Source of the DNA: Candidatus Scalindua japonica
GTDB taxonomy: Bacteria; Planctomycetota; Brocadiia; Brocadiales; Scalinduaceae
Assembly: GCF_002443295.1 (NCBI RefSeq)
Contig: NZ_BAOS01000014.1
Coordinates: 62,001-126,000, forward strand
DNA length: 64,000 nt
Direction of reading: 5' to 3'
The position numbers and the translations under genes are program-made. The notes under the pieces were generated by a model, which worked only from the letters and a program-made list of their open reading frames with translations, had not been told where the DNA came from and did not search any database. The number at the start of each line of letters is the position of its first letter. Position 1 is the first letter of the stretch. Positions 40,725 through 49,328 of the stretch are shown one piece after another.

Positions 40725-40979
40725 TTAGCCAGAATTAAATATTTTATATTTAAGCTTTACTATCTTATCAGTTGTTTCATCTGAAATTGATACATTGCTT
40801 TTCCTTGCAAACATTTTCATCGTTTCCCTGTCAGTTATACCTTCCATAAGGTAAATATCCAGATCAGAAGCAGATATATCTATCGTTGACAATGCTTCTT
40901 GCCACGATTTGATGTGATACTGCATTCCATAGACGACAACTCCGTCCATATCAAAAATCAGCGTATTAATGTTTTTCAT
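40725..40979 (-). pseudogene. N-terminal fragment of a HAD-family phosphatase/mutase
   Basis: An 84-residue reading frame that begins with the HAD motif I, INTLIFDMDGVVV (nucleophile DxD), and MHxKSW-like YHIKSWQEAL, as in beta-phosphoglucomutase-type enzymes. Motifs II to IV, usually in the next 120 residues, are missing; the frame ends after KYKIFNSG near a small hairpin (CTGGCTTAGCCAG, 40720-40732). It overlaps the FHA/protease gene by 14 bases. Most likely a truncated remnant; a cap-free small protein is possible but unlikely. Confidence 0.65.
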
Positions 40980-42312
40980 CTTCTATTAACTCCAGCGCAT
41001 ACTTTATAGGAACACCAAAGTTTGCACCGCTGAAACCACGAAAAATCCCATAATTTACAGCAACCACTTCTCCTTTATTATTAAAAAGCGGCCCACCACT
41101 ACCCCCAACAGTTGTCTGTGCATCATATATAATTCTTTTTCTTAAAACATCGCTAATGTGTCCCTGAGTTGCTATAGGCTTTATCAAACCATGATTAGAT
41201 AGCTCCTGGGCCGCTTCCAGAAAAGACATTTTAGATATTTCCAGTGCAATTTCCGGATCACTTTTTGCGCAAAGAGCATTTATACCGGCCGGATAACCTA
41301 ACAGGACAACAGGTTCTCCCTCTATTGCCTCCTTATCACTTAATTCTATATCAAATTCAGGTAATTCAATTCCTTCAGGGTCAAAACTTACAAGAGCAAC
41401 ATCGACAATATCAGAAACTTTTTCTACTTTAAGTGGAACAGGGTCTTTCACCTCAGGAAAGAAAGCCCTGAACACCTCAAGTTTTGGTATAAAGCCTGGT
41501 TCAAGAGGAATAGCATGTGCCGCCTGCCGCCACCAAGGCTCAGCAATATGACGATTTGTCAGGATCTTTCCATTACCTATCATAAATCCGGTTCCTGTAA
41601 GTTGATTGGTCAGTAGACGCCCATCCCGCCACGATTTTAACGGCTTACCCGTTTTTTCATCAACTAAAGAAAAAGAACACTGAATTAAACAAACACCCTT
41701 ACTGAAATCTTTTATTATTTTTTCGCCTATAGCACTCTCAAATTCAAGGAGTTCTACTCTTTTTGTTGTTTCTGTCAGACCGGAGAATATGTTATAGATT
41801 AATGTAACAATACCAATAAAGGTGAGCAAGAAGAGAAAGACAGTAACAAGTTTAAATTTTGCTGACGATTGTGTAAACGCCTCTGTCAATAGACTCTGAA
41901 AAAAAGCCGTCGCCGTAACAAGCGTTCTCCCCTTCTGTGGTTCTCTGGCGATATCCATGGAATCCGCCAGTATTTCACTCAATGGCTTACATACATCTCC
42001 CACCTCCTCTTTTATCCTGAAACGTGCTCTTGGCCCGTTGTTACCAAATTCAATAAGGTCACCATCATGAATAACAACCTCCTTTATCTGCCTGTTATTC
42101 ACAAACGTACCTTCAGCACTGTCTAAATCCTTCAGGACATAATCACACTCCTGTAAAATTATTTCCGCATGAAAAGGTGATGTGTTTTTGTCTATAGATT
42201 GATCAAAATTGAGGTTGCACATAGGGCCTGTTCCAACACTGATTTTTGAATCAGTAAAGGATTCTGTCTTACCTCTTTTACTTCCCGACAGATGAACAAA
42301 GATAGCCTTCAT
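40966..42312 (-). CDS. FHA-domain membrane-anchored trypsin-like serine protease
   Basis: A 448-residue protein. Residues 1-105 form an FHA phosphothreonine-binding domain (KISVGTGPMCNLNF, SPFHAEIILQE, EGTFVNNRQI). A membrane span at about 157-178 (LVTVFLFLLTFIGIVTLIY) separates it from a trypsin-like domain with His255 (TNRHIAEPWW), Asp304 (VDVALVSFD) and Ser405 (GGSGGPLF). The cytosolic FHA faces signalling kinases and the protease lies on the other side of the membrane. It overlaps the next upstream gene by four bases. A link between Ser/Thr phosphorylation and proteolysis is inferred. Confidence 0.88.
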   Translation of the reverse strand: MKAIFVHLSGSKRGKTESFTDSKISVGTGPMCNLNFDQSIDKNTSPFHAEIILQECDYVLKDLDSAEGTFVNNRQIKEVVIHDGDLIEFGNNGPRARFRIKEEVGDVCKPLSEILADSMDIAREPQKGRTLVTATAFFQSLLTEAFTQSSAKFKLVTVFLFLLTFIGIVTLIYNIFSGLTETTKRVELLEFESAIGEKIIKDFSKGVCLIQCSFSLVDEKTGKPLKSWRDGRLLTNQLTGTGFMIGNGKILTNRHIAEPWWRQAAHAIPLEPGFIPKLEVFRAFFPEVKDPVPLKVEKVSDIVDVALVSFDPEGIELPEFDIELSDKEAIEGEPVVLLGYPAGINALCAKSDPEIALEISKMSFLEAAQELSNHGLIKPIATQGHISDVLRKRIIYDAQTTVGGSGGPLFNNKGEVVAVNYGIFRGFSGANFGVPIKYALELIEDEKH

Positions 42313-42881
42313 GTGTTATTGTGAACAAAATGATTGTATATAATATCAGCAAAAGCACTTAGTCCCTTCATATCTTTGCCCAATTTTGATATCTTGTTTC
42401 CAAGCGCTTCCCTGTTTCTAAAGTTCTTTGAAACGTATTCGGCTACGAAAGTCTGAGCTGAAATAAAATTAAGATCAATCCCCTGATCATCAGAGCTTTC
42501 TGATATTTTATATGCAACCAGATCAGTAATTGTCTTTAATGTAATATCTTTTTTACTGCTTATATTGTTTTTGACTGTTTCAAAATCCAGATGGTCACTG
42601 GATATAAAAGACTGATATATCATCTCAGCAAAGGTTTCAATTCCCTTAAGCCCACCATCTAATATTGTTAACTTTTCGCGAAATTCATCAAGGGTACTGT
42701 AATTTTCTGAAATATATTCTGCCGTTATTTGCTCTGCTTTAGTAATATTATTTTCAGGACCACTGTCATAAGGACCCTTTGATATTTTTAACGCTACTAT
42801 ATCAGTTATGGGTTTTAATGTAACATCTTTAACATTTCGTATATGATCTACAATTGTTTCCACATCCAGTTTCTTGTCCAT
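42309..42881 (-). CDS. Protein of two tandem homologous domains, unknown family
   Basis: A 190-residue protein made of two copies of a roughly 90-residue domain. Copy one runs from VETIVDHIRNVKDVTLKPIT to GLKGIETFAEMIYQSFI; copy two from FETVKNNISSKKDITLKTIT to MKGLSAFADIIYNHFV. Both are helical-looking. There is no signal peptide. The stop overlaps the start of the FHA/protease gene by four bases (ATGA-type), so the two are translated together. I do not recognise the domain. Confidence 0.7.
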   Translation of the reverse strand: MDKKLDVETIVDHIRNVKDVTLKPITDIVALKISKGPYDSGPENNITKAEQITAEYISENYSTLDEFREKLTILDGGLKGIETFAEMIYQSFISSDHLDFETVKNNISSKKDITLKTITDLVAYKISESSDDQGIDLNFISAQTFVAEYVSKNFRNREALGNKISKLGKDMKGLSAFADIIYNHFVHNNT

Positions 42882-43144: not shown

Positions 43145-43516
43145 TCAATGACTGCCGGTAGCTGGACGACCTGCAGCACCTAATTCAAATGTCACCTGTA
43201 CAATTTCACCTGCTTTAACCCTGACTTGTTTGGTAGCTGTATTGTCATGGTGATCAGCAACTGTAACGGTATGGAAGCCATTGTCAACTGATAAAATTGT
43301 GTTTCCGCTATAACCGGTAGTACCAGAATTATCTCCTACACTTACCTCAGCTCCTTTAATTGGCGCACCCATTGCTGTTACCATAACAATGACTGTTCCT
43401 CCCTGAGTAGGAGGCCACTCACCACCCCTATCATAAGCAGAGCTAACATTGCTCAAGCAGAAAATTAACCCAGCTGCTATCAGCGATACAAAAGCAAATT
43501 TCATTTTACTAAGCAT
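43145..43516 (-). CDS. Small secreted protein with carboxypeptidase-regulatory-like (Ig-like) fold
   Basis: A 123-residue protein with a signal peptide (KFAFVSLIAAGLIFCLSNVSSA, cleavage after SSA). The mature part has GTVIVMVTAMGAPIKGAEVSV and GTTGYSGNTILSVDNGFHTVTV, the pattern of carboxypeptidase-regulatory-like (PEGA/CarboxypepD_reg) domains with a gapped loop. GGAG lies seven bases before the ATG, which supports this start. It has its own terminator. The role is probably structural or adhesive, but this is inference. Confidence 0.75.
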   Translation of the reverse strand: MLSKMKFAFVSLIAAGLIFCLSNVSSAYDRGGEWPPTQGGTVIVMVTAMGAPIKGAEVSVGDNSGTTGYSGNTILSVDNGFHTVTVADHHDNTATKQVRVKAGEIVQVTFELGAAGRPATGSH

Positions 43517-43908: not shown

Positions 43909-46900
43909 ATGCAAAATAGAGAAATAACGGAAGAGAAGAGTTTCTATAAACATAAAAGAGATTTTCTTAAGGGTTACGCACCTTTTTCCTTATTGTCAAA
44001 CAATTTATTAAAGAAGATTGTATCTAAAATCCAGATCCAGAATTATGGGACAGGTCAGACTATATGTGAAAGAGGACAGAAGGGTAATTGCCTGTTTATC
44101 ATCCATACCGGGACCGTGGTAGAAACGTTGGTTGATAACAGTGGAGAAGAGATTACCGTCGCAATACTCAACAAAGGAGATTGTTTTGGTGCAATCCCTT
44201 TCCTTACCGATGAATCATACCTGGCAACCAGAAAGGCAAAGGAAGAGGTTGAACTCTTCGTACTTCACGATTATGACATCCAGGAACTGATTCTGAAGAA
44301 CCCTGTTCTAAGTATACATTTAAGTAGAATTGTCTCTGAAAGGATAAAATCCTTCTTTGATTTCTTTGAAAAGGAAAAGATAAAAATAGTTGAAGTCATT
44401 GAAGGTGAATCTGAAAAAGAGAGAAAACTGGAAATAATTAATAGAGTAACCAGGCTATTCCATTCATCGGAAGATATTAACAGGACACTCTTTTTTGTTG
44501 TCAAGGCAGTTAACAGAGAAATGAAAGCCGATGCCTGTTCTATTTATCTCGTAGACCCGGTTTCTTATGAACTTGTACTGGAAGCTGCAGTTGGCTTTGA
44601 TGAAAAAGTAATTACAAATGTGAGAATGCGATTGGATAAAGGTGAAGGGATTACCGGATGGGTAGTAGAGCATGGAGAACCTGTCGCTCTTGAAGATATC
44701 CATGCGGACCCAAGGGTGAAGTTTATTACTGAAATCCATGAGGACCGATTTTCATCGCTATTGTCTGTACCGTTAGGTGATAAAAAAAACGTTATAGGCG
44801 CGATTAATATACAGACTGTAGACAGAAGAAAGTACACGTATGATGATATAAGAGGATTGACGATTATGGCAAATCACATTGCCCTTGCAATCTCCCATGC
44901 ACGCCTTAAAAGGAGGATACAGATTGTAGAAGGAGTAAGCGACAGAAACGTTTCAGATAAATCGGGTTTTGTAGGTAAGGGTAAGTATATTGACAAAATA
45001 AATGCGTTCGTTGATTTAATGGCTTCTGGTGACGGACCGGTATTAATAGGTGGTGAAGATGGAACTGGTAATGTGCCGATGTCAAAGATTATTCATTATA
45101 AGAGCAAACGTTATAAAGGCCCTTTTGTAGAGATTGATTGTAGAAATATTGACAGTGCATCATGGGGAGAAGAACTGTTTGGATATGAAAAAAATACTAA
45201 AGTAATTTGCAGTGATGGCCTGACAAAAAATAATTTACAGAACGATTTTTCCCCTCAGAAAGATATTGAAACAGGAAGCCTGGTAACACGTCTGGGATTT
45301 ATTGAGCTGGCTGATTCAGGAACTATTTTTTTAAATCATGTTGATAGATTGAATCAGGCGAACCAGATTAAATTACTGAATTATCTACAGGAAGGTAAAT
45401 TTAATCGTGTCAACGGAAATGATACTATTTTTTCAAACGCGAGAATTATTTCATCTGTTTCTCAAAATATCGCTTCATATTTAGAGGAAGGAAGATTTGA
45501 TAAGAGTCTATATAAAATACTAAATAAAAATTATTACCAATTAAAGGCTCTTAGAGACCAGAAACGCAGTATTCCCATGCTTACCAAAGATTTTATTGAA
45601 AATATCAGTCGTGAATTGCATAAAGACGTAAAGGGTATAGCTGACAATGCTATGGGAAGATTGATGAGTTATGATTGGCCCGGTAATGTAAAAGAACTTG
45701 AGAATGTATTAAGGCGCGCAGTAATTCTGGCAAAAGGTGATGTAATTACGTCAGAACAGATTTTTTTCGGTATACCGATGGGAGAAAAAAAATGGTCATA
45801 TGATATTCTTTCATTTGATACGGTTAAAAGTTTCCTGAAAAGCAGACTTTATCCATCAGGCCTTCAGATTTTAAGTTCTATTTTTCTTGTAATTACACTT
45901 CTGATGCTTTTTCTGGGACACAAAAACGGGCTGTTAAATCCTGTAAATATATTATTCTGGTCAGCCGGAATATTTGGCATGTACATGATAACTTTTGTTT
46001 CCGGAAGATTTTTATGCGGAATATGTCCTTTTGCTGCCACAGGTGATTTGATTAAGCGATTTATATGTTTTAATCGGCAAATACCAAAGATAATGGTTTC
46101 ATACGGAAGGTATTTTACCATTGGACTCATAATATCAATCTTCTGGTTTGAAGGTGTCACATCAATTCAACACTCTTCGACATTAACGGCATACTTAATT
46201 GTATTTATTCTCTCAGGAGCTATTATTTCAGGCATTCTCTTTGAAAGAAGAGCATGGTGCAGGTATCTTTGCCCACTGGGTGGCCTGTTTGGCATTTATT
46301 CACTTACATCAATAACCTCTTTGAAGGCAAATAGAAGTGTCTGTCTGAACCAATGTGAAACTCACGATTGTTATCTGGGAACACAATTAACAAAAGGCTG
46401 TCCAATGTATTTACATCCTTATGGACTGGAGAATGGTAAAGATTGTGTTTTATGTATGAATTGTTATAAAAACTGCAGTCACGGTTCTATAAAGGTCAAT
46501 TTCCAGGTACCCGGAAACGATATAGGCAACATGTCCAACAGGTCATTGTCTGAATCTTTACTGTGTTTGTCAATGTTGGGGATTTTGTTAGTTGAGTATG
46601 GGAGCCTTCTCAGTATAGAGTCTCAGCTCTTTCAATCTTTATCTCGCCTTATCGGAATCAATCAAACCATACTTTACACGTTGATATTCATCTCTGTATC
46701 TTTTCTATCGTCCGGTTCTATCGTTTTTCTCGATTATGTATCTAATGGGTTCTCGTTTGACAATGTGAAAGCAAGAATTATAGACTTCGGATACTCTGCA
46801 ATTCCACTCGCACTTATGGGACATCTTGCCTTTTACTGGAACAAAATTAAAGCGGATTTCCGAAAGCTGATGGAGTTAACCGGTATATACCAACCGGTAA

Positions 46901-47106
46901 GGGTTGAAAATGAAGTTTTAATTGCAGAAAAAATAGAGGGTATCTCAGCTATTGAATTATTATTTATTTTTGCAGGTTTTTTTGGAAGTGTTTATATTTT
47001 CTATCTTCTATCAAAAAAGACAAAACATGCTTTGACAATATCGACCACGACCAGTTATTTATCTGTATTCGCTGTCTTTGCATTTACATATATATGTTTA
47101 TTGTAG
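43909..47106 (+). CDS. Fusion of cNMP, GAF, degenerate sigma-54 AAA and membrane polyferredoxin domains
   Basis: A 1065-residue protein. Residues about 20-150 form a cNMP-type barrel (cassette CFGAIPFLTDESYLAT, without the usual arginine), 175-335 a GAF domain, and 355-600 a sigma-54 AAA-like domain. That domain is degenerate: Walker A reads GGEDGTGN with Asn388 for Lys, Walker B has Asn476-His477 (IFLNHVD) for the acidic pair, and the GAFTGA motif is absent. No DNA-binding HTH follows. Residues 650-1065 hold several membrane spans with CGICPF (Cys703, 706), CRYLCPLGG (784, 788), a four-Cys set at 812-831 and CVLCMNCYKNC (846-856), as in NapH/NosR polyferredoxins. It is probably a membrane redox sensor or electron-transfer protein; transcription activation is unlikely. 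Confidence 0.85.
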   Translation: MQNREITEEKSFYKHKRDFLKGYAPFSLLSNNLLKKIVSKIQIQNYGTGQTICERGQKGNCLFIIHTGTVVETLVDNSGEEITVAILNKGDCFGAIPFLTDESYLATRKAKEEVELFVLHDYDIQELILKNPVLSIHLSRIVSERIKSFFDFFEKEKIKIVEVIEGESEKERKLEIINRVTRLFHSSEDINRTLFFVVKAVNREMKADACSIYLVDPVSYELVLEAAVGFDEKVITNVRMRLDKGEGITGWVVEHGEPVALEDIHADPRVKFITEIHEDRFSSLLSVPLGDKKNVIGAINIQTVDRRKYTYDDIRGLTIMANHIALAISHARLKRRIQIVEGVSDRNVSDKSGFVGKGKYIDKINAFVDLMASGDGPVLIGGEDGTGNVPMSKIIHYKSKRYKGPFVEIDCRNIDSASWGEELFGYEKNTKVICSDGLTKNNLQNDFSPQKDIETGSLVTRLGFIELADSGTIFLNHVDRLNQANQIKLLNYLQEGKFNRVNGNDTIFSNARIISSVSQNIASYLEEGRFDKSLYKILNKNYYQLKALRDQKRSIPMLTKDFIENISRELHKDVKGIADNAMGRLMSYDWPGNVKELENVLRRAVILAKGDVITSEQIFFGIPMGEKKWSYDILSFDTVKSFLKSRLYPSGLQILSSIFLVITLLMLFLGHKNGLLNPVNILFWSAGIFGMYMITFVSGRFLCGICPFAATGDLIKRFICFNRQIPKIMVSYGRYFTIGLIISIFWFEGVTSIQHSSTLTAYLIVFILSGAIISGILFERRAWCRYLCPLGGLFGIYSLTSITSLKANRSVCLNQCETHDCYLGTQLTKGCPMYLHPYGLENGKDCVLCMNCYKNCSHGSIKVNFQVPGNDIGNMSNRSLSESLLCLSMLGILLVEYGSLLSIESQLFQSLSRLIGINQTILYTLIFISVSFLSSGSIVFLDYVSNGFSFDNVKARIIDFGYSAIPLALMGHLAFYWNKIKADFRKLMELTGIYQPVRVENEVLIAEKIEGISAIELLFIFAGFFGSVYIFYLLSKKTKHALTISTTTSYLSVFAVFAFTYICLL

Positions 47107-47168: not shown

Positions 47169-48167
47169 TTATTCAGCTAAAGATGAGGGGTTATACAGTT
47201 TAGACTTATTATGCGAATCTTTTGGACCTAAAAAACATATGAACTCTTTCAGCAATTCCTTATTAAAAAAATTTTCCTTTTTACTTTTCATCTCTGCCAG
47301 CGCCGCAAAAGGAGTCATCGCATCTGCGTAACCCTTGTTGCTAGTCATTGCATCATACGCATCAACTATTCGTGATATACTGCCAAATAAATGGATATCA
47401 CCTTCTCCAATTCCATAAGGATACCCTGTACCATCATGATTTTCATGATGTTGAATAACTACTTTTAATGACAGTCCATCAATATTACCCCTCTGTTCTA
47501 AAAGCTCAAGTCCCGCTTTAGGATGCCTCCTTATTACATCCAACTCTTCTCGGGTAAGTTTATTGCTATTGTTGATAACATCAGGAGAGATGGTTGCCAT
47601 TCCTATATCATGCAACAACAAACCTGTACCAAGGCAATCCAATTCATGCGGCTTTAAGGAAAGATATTTACCAAAAAGTAAGCCAATCACCGACACATTA
47701 ATAGAATGTGTATATAACTGGTAATTTTGGGAAGTGACTGTAAATAAACTGTAAAATGTGTTTTCATCTTGCACGATGTGTTGGACTGTATTACTTACCC
47801 ACTCAGACGCCCTTTCGATATTTTGGCCGGACTTTGGGTCGTCCAAAATCTCCTTTGTAATATTCTCAGCAACCTGATAGAGAACTCCGGATTTTTCTAA
47901 AGAGTCCTTACTACTGTCTTCAATGATTTGTTTAAGGTTTTTTTCCTGATATCTGAGATATTTATCAGTGTCTTTTGTAGAAATATAAAGCCTTTGTATA
48001 TTCCTGTTTAATAATTCCCCTTTTCTCTGCTGGCTAAATTGCTCGTTTCCACGGCAGAATAAAATATATTGCGAGCGTCCTCTGATATCACTTCTTAAAA
48101 AAAGATCAAACTCTATCTTTGTATTTTCAATTAAAGTATTTTTTGTTATGGCTATATATTCATTCAT
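47169..48167 (-). CDS. HD-GYP domain protein (downstream copy)
   Basis: A 332-residue protein with an HD-GYP domain: LLLHDIGMATISPDVINN, HHENHDGTGYPYGIGEG and RIVDAYDAMTSNKGYADAM, so the metal and c-di-GMP residues are kept. The N-terminal 100 residues are a shared domain (KIEFDLFLRSDIRGRSQYIL). It is closely similar over its length to the next gene upstream (48327), showing a tandem duplication. Two genes with the same signals suggest a dosage or specialisation event. They lie on the strand opposite the large sensor gene. Confidence 0.88.
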   Translation of the reverse strand: MNEYIAITKNTLIENTKIEFDLFLRSDIRGRSQYILFCRGNEQFSQQRKGELLNRNIQRLYISTKDTDKYLRYQEKNLKQIIEDSSKDSLEKSGVLYQVAENITKEILDDPKSGQNIERASEWVSNTVQHIVQDENTFYSLFTVTSQNYQLYTHSINVSVIGLLFGKYLSLKPHELDCLGTGLLLHDIGMATISPDVINNSNKLTREELDVIRRHPKAGLELLEQRGNIDGLSLKVVIQHHENHDGTGYPYGIGEGDIHLFGSISRIVDAYDAMTSNKGYADAMTPFAALAEMKSKKENFFNKELLKEFICFLGPKDSHNKSKLYNPSSLAE

Positions 48168-48326: not shown

Positions 48327-49328
48327 TTAGGACGTATTCATCTGCAATATATTATCATCTCTGGGTTTTTTGCGAGGATCTTTAAGCCCAAGAAAGCAGA
48401 TAAACTCTTTCAACAATTCATCGTCAAAGCAGCCCTGCATCTCTTTTTTAATTTCTGCCAGTGTCGCAAATGGCTTCATTGCGGACGCATATGGTCGGTT
48501 GGATGTCATTGCATCATATGAGTCAACTATACGGGAAATATGACCAAATAGATGAATTTCATTACCTCCGATTCCATAAGGATATCCTGTACCATCATTA
48601 TTTTCGTGGTGTTGAACAACAATTTTCAGTGACGCACCATCAATATTTATGAATTGATCTAAAATGTTCAGTCCCAATTTAGGGTGTTTTTTTATTATAC
48701 CGAATTCTTGACTCGTAAGATTTCTACGATTATTTATTATCTCTGATGGGATTTTTGTCTTACCAATATCATGTAGAAGCAGGCCCGTTCCCAGATTTTT
48801 CAATTCCTTAGAATCTAAAGCAAGATATTTTCCAAAAAGTAATCCGATTACTGAGGTATTAATAGAATGTGTATAAATATGATAATCACGAGAGGTAACT
48901 TCAAACAAGCTGGAGAACGTGTTTTCATTTTGAATAATGTGGGTAATGGTGTTACCGACCCAGGCAGAAGCCCGTTTGACTGTCTGGGTTGGTATTGGAT
49001 CTGCCATGATATCACGAGTTAAATTTTTTGCAACTTGATAAAGTGCTCCTGATTTTTGTAAAGAACTTTTACTGCTATCCGTAACGATTTGGTTAAGATT
49101 TTGTTCCTGGTATATTAAGTATTTGTCTGTGTCTTCTGAGGAGATATAGAATTGTTCTACCTTTTTGTTTAATAACTCTTCTCTCAACTGAGGGCTGAAG
49201 AGTTGGTTTCCTCGGCAGAATAAGATATATCTTGAGCGGCCGTTAAAATCATTTCTCAAAAACAAATCAAACTCTATCTTAGTGCCTTCAACTAAAGCAT
49301 TTTTTGTTATGGCTATGTATTCACTCAT
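48327..49328 (-). CDS. HD-GYP domain protein (upstream copy)
   Basis: A 333-residue paralogue of the gene at 47169, with HDIGKTKIPSEIINNRRNL, HHENNDGTGYPYGIGGN and RIVDSYDAMTSNRPYASAM. The HD, GYP and metal-ligand residues are complete; this copy keeps HDIGK, while the other has HDIGM. Predicted cyclic di-GMP phosphodiesterase. The N-terminal domain is of a kind not named by me. The spacer between the two is about 160 bases, AT-rich. Confidence 0.88.
   Translation of the reverse strand: MSEYIAITKNALVEGTKIEFDLFLRNDFNGRSRYILFCRGNQLFSPQLREELLNKKVEQFYISSEDTDKYLIYQEQNLNQIVTDSSKSSLQKSGALYQVAKNLTRDIMADPIPTQTVKRASAWVGNTITHIIQNENTFSSLFEVTSRDYHIYTHSINTSVIGLLFGKYLALDSKELKNLGTGLLLHDIGKTKIPSEIINNRRNLTSQEFGIIKKHPKLGLNILDQFINIDGASLKIVVQHHENNDGTGYPYGIGGNEIHLFGHISRIVDSYDAMTSNRPYASAMKPFATLAEIKKEMQGCFDDELLKEFICFLGLKDPRKKPRDDNILQMNTS

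Follow-up and report, generated by a model that had tools for sequence, protein, structure and literature searches.

The window, a 64,000-nucleotide stretch of the Candidatus Scalindua japonica genome, contains at 43909–47106 on the forward strand an intact open reading frame of 1065 amino acids with no internal stops. Pfam searches of the encoded protein detected cNMP_binding (aa 44–130, 1e-16), GAF_2 (aa 188–328, 8e-17), Sigma54_activat (8e-29), AAA_lid_14 (aa 549–619), and Fer4_5 (aa 761–797). These matches, found in a single frame, agree with an initial annotation that had described cNMP-type, GAF, and sigma-54-like AAA domains fused to a polyferredoxin. The helix-turn-helix (HTH) domain reported there as missing gave no Pfam match, and the C-terminus consists of membrane helices. 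The AlphaFold2 model of the protein had a mean pLDDT of 74.6. The features of the gene are as follows.

43909..47106 (+): whole gene, cNMP-binding fold, GAF, pseudo sigma-54 AAA, lid, and membrane polyferredoxin (open reading frame, Pfam, orthologues)
44038..44298 (+): cNMP-binding-fold domain, aa 44–130 (Pfam)
44470..44892 (+): GAF domain, aa 188–328 (Pfam)
44971..45528 (+): sigma-54-type AAA core, aa 355–540, catalytically degenerate (Pfam, predicted fold, family alignment)
45052..45072 (+): Walker A, GEDGTGN, aa 382–388; Lys in the orthologues (alignment)
45193..45285 (+): fast-evolving insert, aa 429–459, replacing the GAFTGA loop (alignment, dN/dS, pLDDT)
45322..45339 (+): degenerate Walker B, TIFLNH, aa 472–477 (family alignment)
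45553..45765 (+): AAA lid, aa 549–619, strongly constrained, sensor II Arg replaced (Pfam, dN/dS, family alignment)
45841..46539 (+): NapH-like membrane core with four transmembrane (TM) helices, CX2CP at 703–707, CX3CP at 784–789, and two ferredoxin-type Cys motifs at 812–831 and 846–856, predicted on the cytoplasmic side (Pfam, predicted structure)
46342..46476 (+): ferredoxin-like segment with eight cysteines, a candidate for two [4Fe-4S] clusters (Cys motifs)
46546..47103 (+): C-terminal membrane helices, aa 880–1065, additional to NapH (predicted structure, comparison)

Nine further genomes, from the same genus or a sister genus, contain full-length orthologues that are 68–81% identical, and one more orthologue was cut at a contig edge. 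The orthologue of genome G014 (L059, 255–3118) was broken into several frames, which points to a pseudogene or to errors in assembling that MAG. A profile search for the fusion, covering the named genomes, 392 Planctomycetota genomes, and the phyla of three other matches, brought the family to 73 distinct relatives from at least seven phyla. Within Planctomycetota, fusions occurred in Scalindua and Anammoxibacter types and in three other families; the other Brocadiales families sampled had ordinary activators only, with no fusion at the search level used. Fusions were found in 15 of 297 Desulfobacterota genomes sampled, 6 of 198 Nitrospirota genomes, and 3 of 247 Acidobacteriota genomes, and also in Nitrospinota, Tectomicrobia, and Armatimonadota. 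The cultured bacterium Desulfosediminicola flagellatus carries two copies. The window's own genome carries a second fusion gene, of subfamily B1 (G000 contig C38). In quick tree searches, the AAA domains of the fusions grouped together in a single clade, apart from the 21 ordinary activators included (SH-aLRT 100). We regard this result as supportive and not as proof, since degenerate domains that evolve fast may be drawn together in such trees. In the full tree, also a quick search, the window protein fell among the Nitrospinota and Nitrospirota fusions of the cNMP+GAF type (SH-aLRT 99). The domain order, placed outside textbook families by the initial annotation, corresponded to no named family in the libraries searched, and a keyword search of the open-access literature returned background papers only and no description of the architecture, absence not being proven thereby. 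The family appears to be undescribed.

The AAA part of the AlphaFold2 model showed an activator-like fold close to that of active-state NtrC1 (1ny6, target-normalised TM 0.91). Its Walker A reads GEDGTG-N388 and its Walker B FLN476-H477, and the GAFTGA site is occupied by a variable insert of about 30 residues (aa 429–459), which is disordered in the model (pLDDT <50). The change of the Walker A lysine to Asn388, noted in the initial annotation, is present in the window protein; as a family feature it does not hold, since the orthologues have lysine, as do 55 of the 73 relatives. The codon is AAT in the window genome, to which the change is private, and AAA or AAG in nine aligned orthologues; a tenth, N-truncated orthologue also has lysine. 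The remaining losses that had been noted reach across the family. In the orthologues, the Walker B Glu is replaced by His throughout, and the Asp is retained or replaced by Asn. None of the 73 distinct relatives had an intact Walker B Asp-Glu pair, the two arginine fingers, or GAFTGA, the last being present in 6/6 controls. The sensor II Arg was lost in nearly all members, and HTH matches were zero among the fusions scanned. About 1200 genomes were searched for a relative with both an intact Walker motif and an HTH, and none was found; relatives with a good Walker A exist there, none of them with the Walker B Asp-Glu, GAFTGA, or an HTH. As read from the alignment, the degeneration of GAFTGA, the Walker B acidic pair, the arginine fingers, and mostly the sensor II Arg is a property of the family and not a quirk of the window protein. 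The position of the catalytic Glu was taken by Asn (35) or His (28) in 63 of the 73 fusions, a pattern that indicates a consistent choice rather than random decay.

On comparing orthologue pairs, dN/dS was about 0.06–0.14 for the AAA core without the insert, 0.03–0.11 for the lid, and 0.14–0.80 for the insert. These values place the AAA domain and lid under purifying selection in the orthologues. The earlier proposal that a former activator module, having lost its ATPase and sigma-54 functions, became a structural or regulatory arm of a membrane redox protein is supported.

The twelve cysteines reported after the AAA domain were located in the membrane part at 703, 706, 784, 788, 812, 816, 821, 831, 846, 849, 852, and 856. 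They form CX2CP (703/706), CX3CP (784/788), CX3CX4CX9CP (812–831), and CX2CX2CX3C (846–856) motifs. Wherever the sequence of a family member extends over this region, all twelve are kept (71 of 71), so the pattern goes beyond chance. From the helix limits and the positive-inside pattern, we infer that the cysteine segments lie on the cytoplasmic side. Searches with the membrane half against the PDB gave no convincing match, with Foldseek E values above 0.3 and VIA Z scores of at most 7.0, to unrelated helical bundles, and a profile search reached ferredoxin segments only. The NapH family was absent among the matches listed for the window protein. The same cysteines occur in standalone polyferredoxins (L094, 7953–9326; L095, 1643–3019), of which L095 matches TIGR02163 NapH/MauN at 5e-17; the best standalone relative reached 62 of the 213 bits of the curated NapH cut-off (TIGR02163/NF007013). 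The C-terminal helix bundle (aa 880–1065) is also present in standalone homologues from Bacillota and Chloroflexota. The C-terminal helices of L094 and L095 contain a GHLxHN motif, which might bind haem.

The input domains varied among the fusions: cNMP, cNMP+GAF, cNMP+2 GAF, FHA+cNMP, and HisKA+receiver without cNMP. The last is represented by a planctomycete form (L149, 1006–4077, −) in which HisKA and receiver domains precede the pseudo-AAA and polyferredoxin; a HATPase domain was not reported for it. In a simple motif test, the Glu and Arg that hold the cyclic nucleotide were both present in 17 relatives, and a cyclic nucleotide is a likely ligand in several relatives. The phosphate-binding cassette of the window protein (FGAI..YLAT) has neither residue, and the Glu is missing throughout its GAF clade. 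Because the cNMP pocket is degenerate there, the GAF domain would be the likelier input of the window protein. Subfamily B1 has a pocket without the Arg, though its linkage to cyclases is the tightest.

The neighbouring genes often matched the input, as with class III nucleotidyl cyclases and, beside the FHA types, a Ser/Thr kinase. A CHASE2-class III cyclase lay directly upstream on the same strand in 6/6 subfamily-B1 loci, and that of the window's own genome was found at L040, 8061–10460 (G000 contig C38). Cyclases adjoined the fusion or lay within two genes of it in another three lineages, each of which has a canonical cNMP pocket; in L196 and L085 the adjoining cyclase is divergent. At L217 (929–6081, −), the fusion, a PAS-TM-NapC/NirT-like multihaem cytochrome with five CXXCH, and a class III cyclase follow each other on one strand with gaps of <20 bases. 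The ten fusion-bearing genomes counted had one to five cyclase genes each, and the four independent cyclase-linked lineages observed compare with about 0.2 expected on a rough estimate (P about 1e-4). Three genomes of the FHA clade, forming one lineage, have a Ser/Thr kinase gene just downstream. B2 loci were divergent to Rieske/cytochrome b-like genes, named by eye from the sequence, in two genomes. Broad clustering of neighbours returned mainly lineage-specific or housekeeping genes, together with regulator and signalling families that recurred at up to nine loci. No electron acceptor is conserved across the family.

Neither a redox gene nor a cyclase gene adjoins the window gene itself. Its flank is a conserved divergent block consisting of a small probable secreted protein (43148–43516, −), a 190-aa protein with an internal repeat (42312–42881, −), and an FHA-TM-trypsin-like protease (40969–42312, −). 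The protease is divergent to the fusion across Scalindua-type genomes, and the other two stand beside the fusion where the flank is kept. On the other side, tandem HD-GYP-like genes (47172–48167 and 48330–49328, −), putative c-di-GMP phosphodiesterases named by eye, are convergent to the fusion, as at several orthologue loci.

Comparison with known systems indicates that the fusion is built from two familiar kinds of protein, a sigma-54-type activator and a NapH-like membrane module. Sigma-54 enhancer-binding proteins of the NtrC/NifA type share the order input, AAA, and lid, and are the best matches of the AAA part in both sequence and predicted structure. In contrast to them, the fusion has no HTH, Walker B acidic pair, arginine fingers, or sensor II Arg, and its C-terminal half is a membrane redox domain. 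TyrR, HupR, DhaR, and VpsR are activator homologues without GAFTGA (PMC3162934); the available portion of that paper describes no such homologue with a membrane redox domain. NapH, NosR, and PceC (RdhC) share with the window protein the four-TM core and two CX2-3CP motifs, and NapH and NosR also have two ferredoxin-type Cys motifs (PMC5928378). According to the literature summarised in that paper, NapH-type modules are thought to draw electrons from menaquinol by way of their four-TM core, the CX3CP motifs are required for this transfer, and NosR contains about eight Fe (PMC5928378). The window protein differs from this group in its CX2CP first motif, its extra C-terminal TM bundle, its cytoplasmic sensory and AAA half, and a score far below the curated NapH cut-off; an FMN domain was not found in it. 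With CRP/FNR-type regulators the fusions share the cNMP_binding fold; part of the relatives have the canonical pocket, and a cyclase gene adjoins some. The CRP HTH is absent, and in the window clade the pocket is missing both its Glu and its Arg. FleQ and VpsR are AAA proteins with a link to c-di-GMP, and they share with the window protein a sigma-54-type AAA used without ordinary sigma-54 activation; the two HD-GYP genes convergent to the window gene are a further parallel. The likeness of the proteins is one of fold, and the window protein differs in having no HTH and in possessing a membrane domain.

The initial annotation proposed a membrane redox or gas sensor. Nothing in the analysis points to gas sensing, and the word "sensor" probably reverses the true direction. 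The N-terminal domains differ between members, whereas the polyferredoxin and its cysteines stay fixed, and signal-making enzymes lie next door, so that the polyferredoxin is better read as the output. Moreover, a receiver domain takes input, and the invariant polyferredoxin is therefore the natural output. Against this reading, the window gene has neither a redox nor a cyclase neighbour, its cNMP pocket is without Glu and Arg and that of B1 without the Arg, the family shares no conserved electron acceptor, and invariant cysteines would also be expected of a redox sensor. We consider it an even proposition that the fusions constitute an undescribed family of signal-controlled membrane polyferredoxins, with an activator chassis, a NapH-like redox output, and an activity set by signals.

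From the architecture, the patterns of loss and conservation, the selection on the domains, the varied inputs, and the neighbours, we infer the following arrangement of clusters, oligomerisation, gating, and electron path. In an ancestral sigma-54 activator (input-AAA-HTH), the DNA-binding output would have been replaced by a membrane module of the NapH type, with two CX2-3CP motifs and probably two [4Fe-4S] clusters on the cytoplasmic face. The AAA domain would have lost hydrolysis along with sensor II, the arginine fingers, and the Walker B Glu, and sigma-54 contact along with GAFTGA, while staying folded and constrained; it probably works as an oligomerisation switch, with or without bound nucleotide, that links the input to the membrane. 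The input would be a second-messenger or phospho-signal, a cyclic nucleotide in several relatives and probably a GAF ligand in the clade of the window protein. As its output, the protein would pass electrons between the quinone pool and an acceptor, either cytoplasmic or part of a partner, along a path that the input opens or closes. That second messengers or phosphorylation directly open or close a membrane quinol/ferredoxin path through a non-hydrolysing AAA ring, with transcription unchanged, is a tentative proposal to which we give somewhat less than even weight.

Information may instead run in the opposite direction, the polyferredoxin reading the quinone/ferredoxin pool and the cytoplasmic half signalling to the cyclase or kinase, or poisoning sigma-54 activator rings as a membrane-tethered anti-activator that enters the rings of ordinary sigma-54 activators; we think this less likely, but it is the main rival. 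The AAA domain retains the activator fold, the loss of both arginine fingers and the Walker B Glu would yield a poisonous ring subunit, and the cyclase and kinase neighbours could equally be downstream partners. Of 18 fusion-bearing genomes, 17 have sigma-54, and of six checked for intact activators, five have many; being found so widely, sigma-54 does not separate the models. The domains at the N-terminus (cNMP, GAF, FHA, receiver), however, are normally signal receivers, the cytoplasmic half retains no constant effector domain that could carry an output, and the fusions branch well apart from the activators that they would have to join.

A polyferredoxin that is always on as a quinol-linked carrier, with AAA and inputs serving mainly as a scaffold for oligomer size or placement, is improbable. 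It would accommodate the loss of catalytic residues in all members, the degenerate cNMP pocket of many, and the existence of standalone polyferredoxins with the same cysteines. It is at odds with the repeated swaps of input domains, the matching signal genes beside them, and an AAA domain and lid constrained as much as the rest. A decaying gene or an artificial two-gene fusion, the latter raised in the initial annotation and both suggested by the private Asn388 and the broken G014 relative, can hardly be entertained, since the frame and the twelve cysteines are conserved. Nine other genomes have an intact orthologue and further phyla have related fusions, which excludes an assembly fusion or frame artefact, and domain dN/dS well below 1 and a loss pattern common to the family rule out recent pseudogenisation of the AAA domain.

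To return to the signal-controlled polyferredoxin, annotation pipelines likely call such fusions sigma-54 transcription regulators, wrongly, as judged from the family matches. The family offers a natural series of sigma-54-type AAA domains in which hydrolysis appears lost and constraint kept, and which could be used to ask what rings do without ATP turnover. It spans anammox bacteria, sulfate reducers, and Nitrospirota/Nitrospinota, in which redox balance decides growth. If the proposed mechanism is true, cyclic-nucleotide, GAF-ligand, Ser/Thr-kinase, or two-component signals would be coupled directly to a membrane electron carrier in these bacteria, bypassing gene expression.
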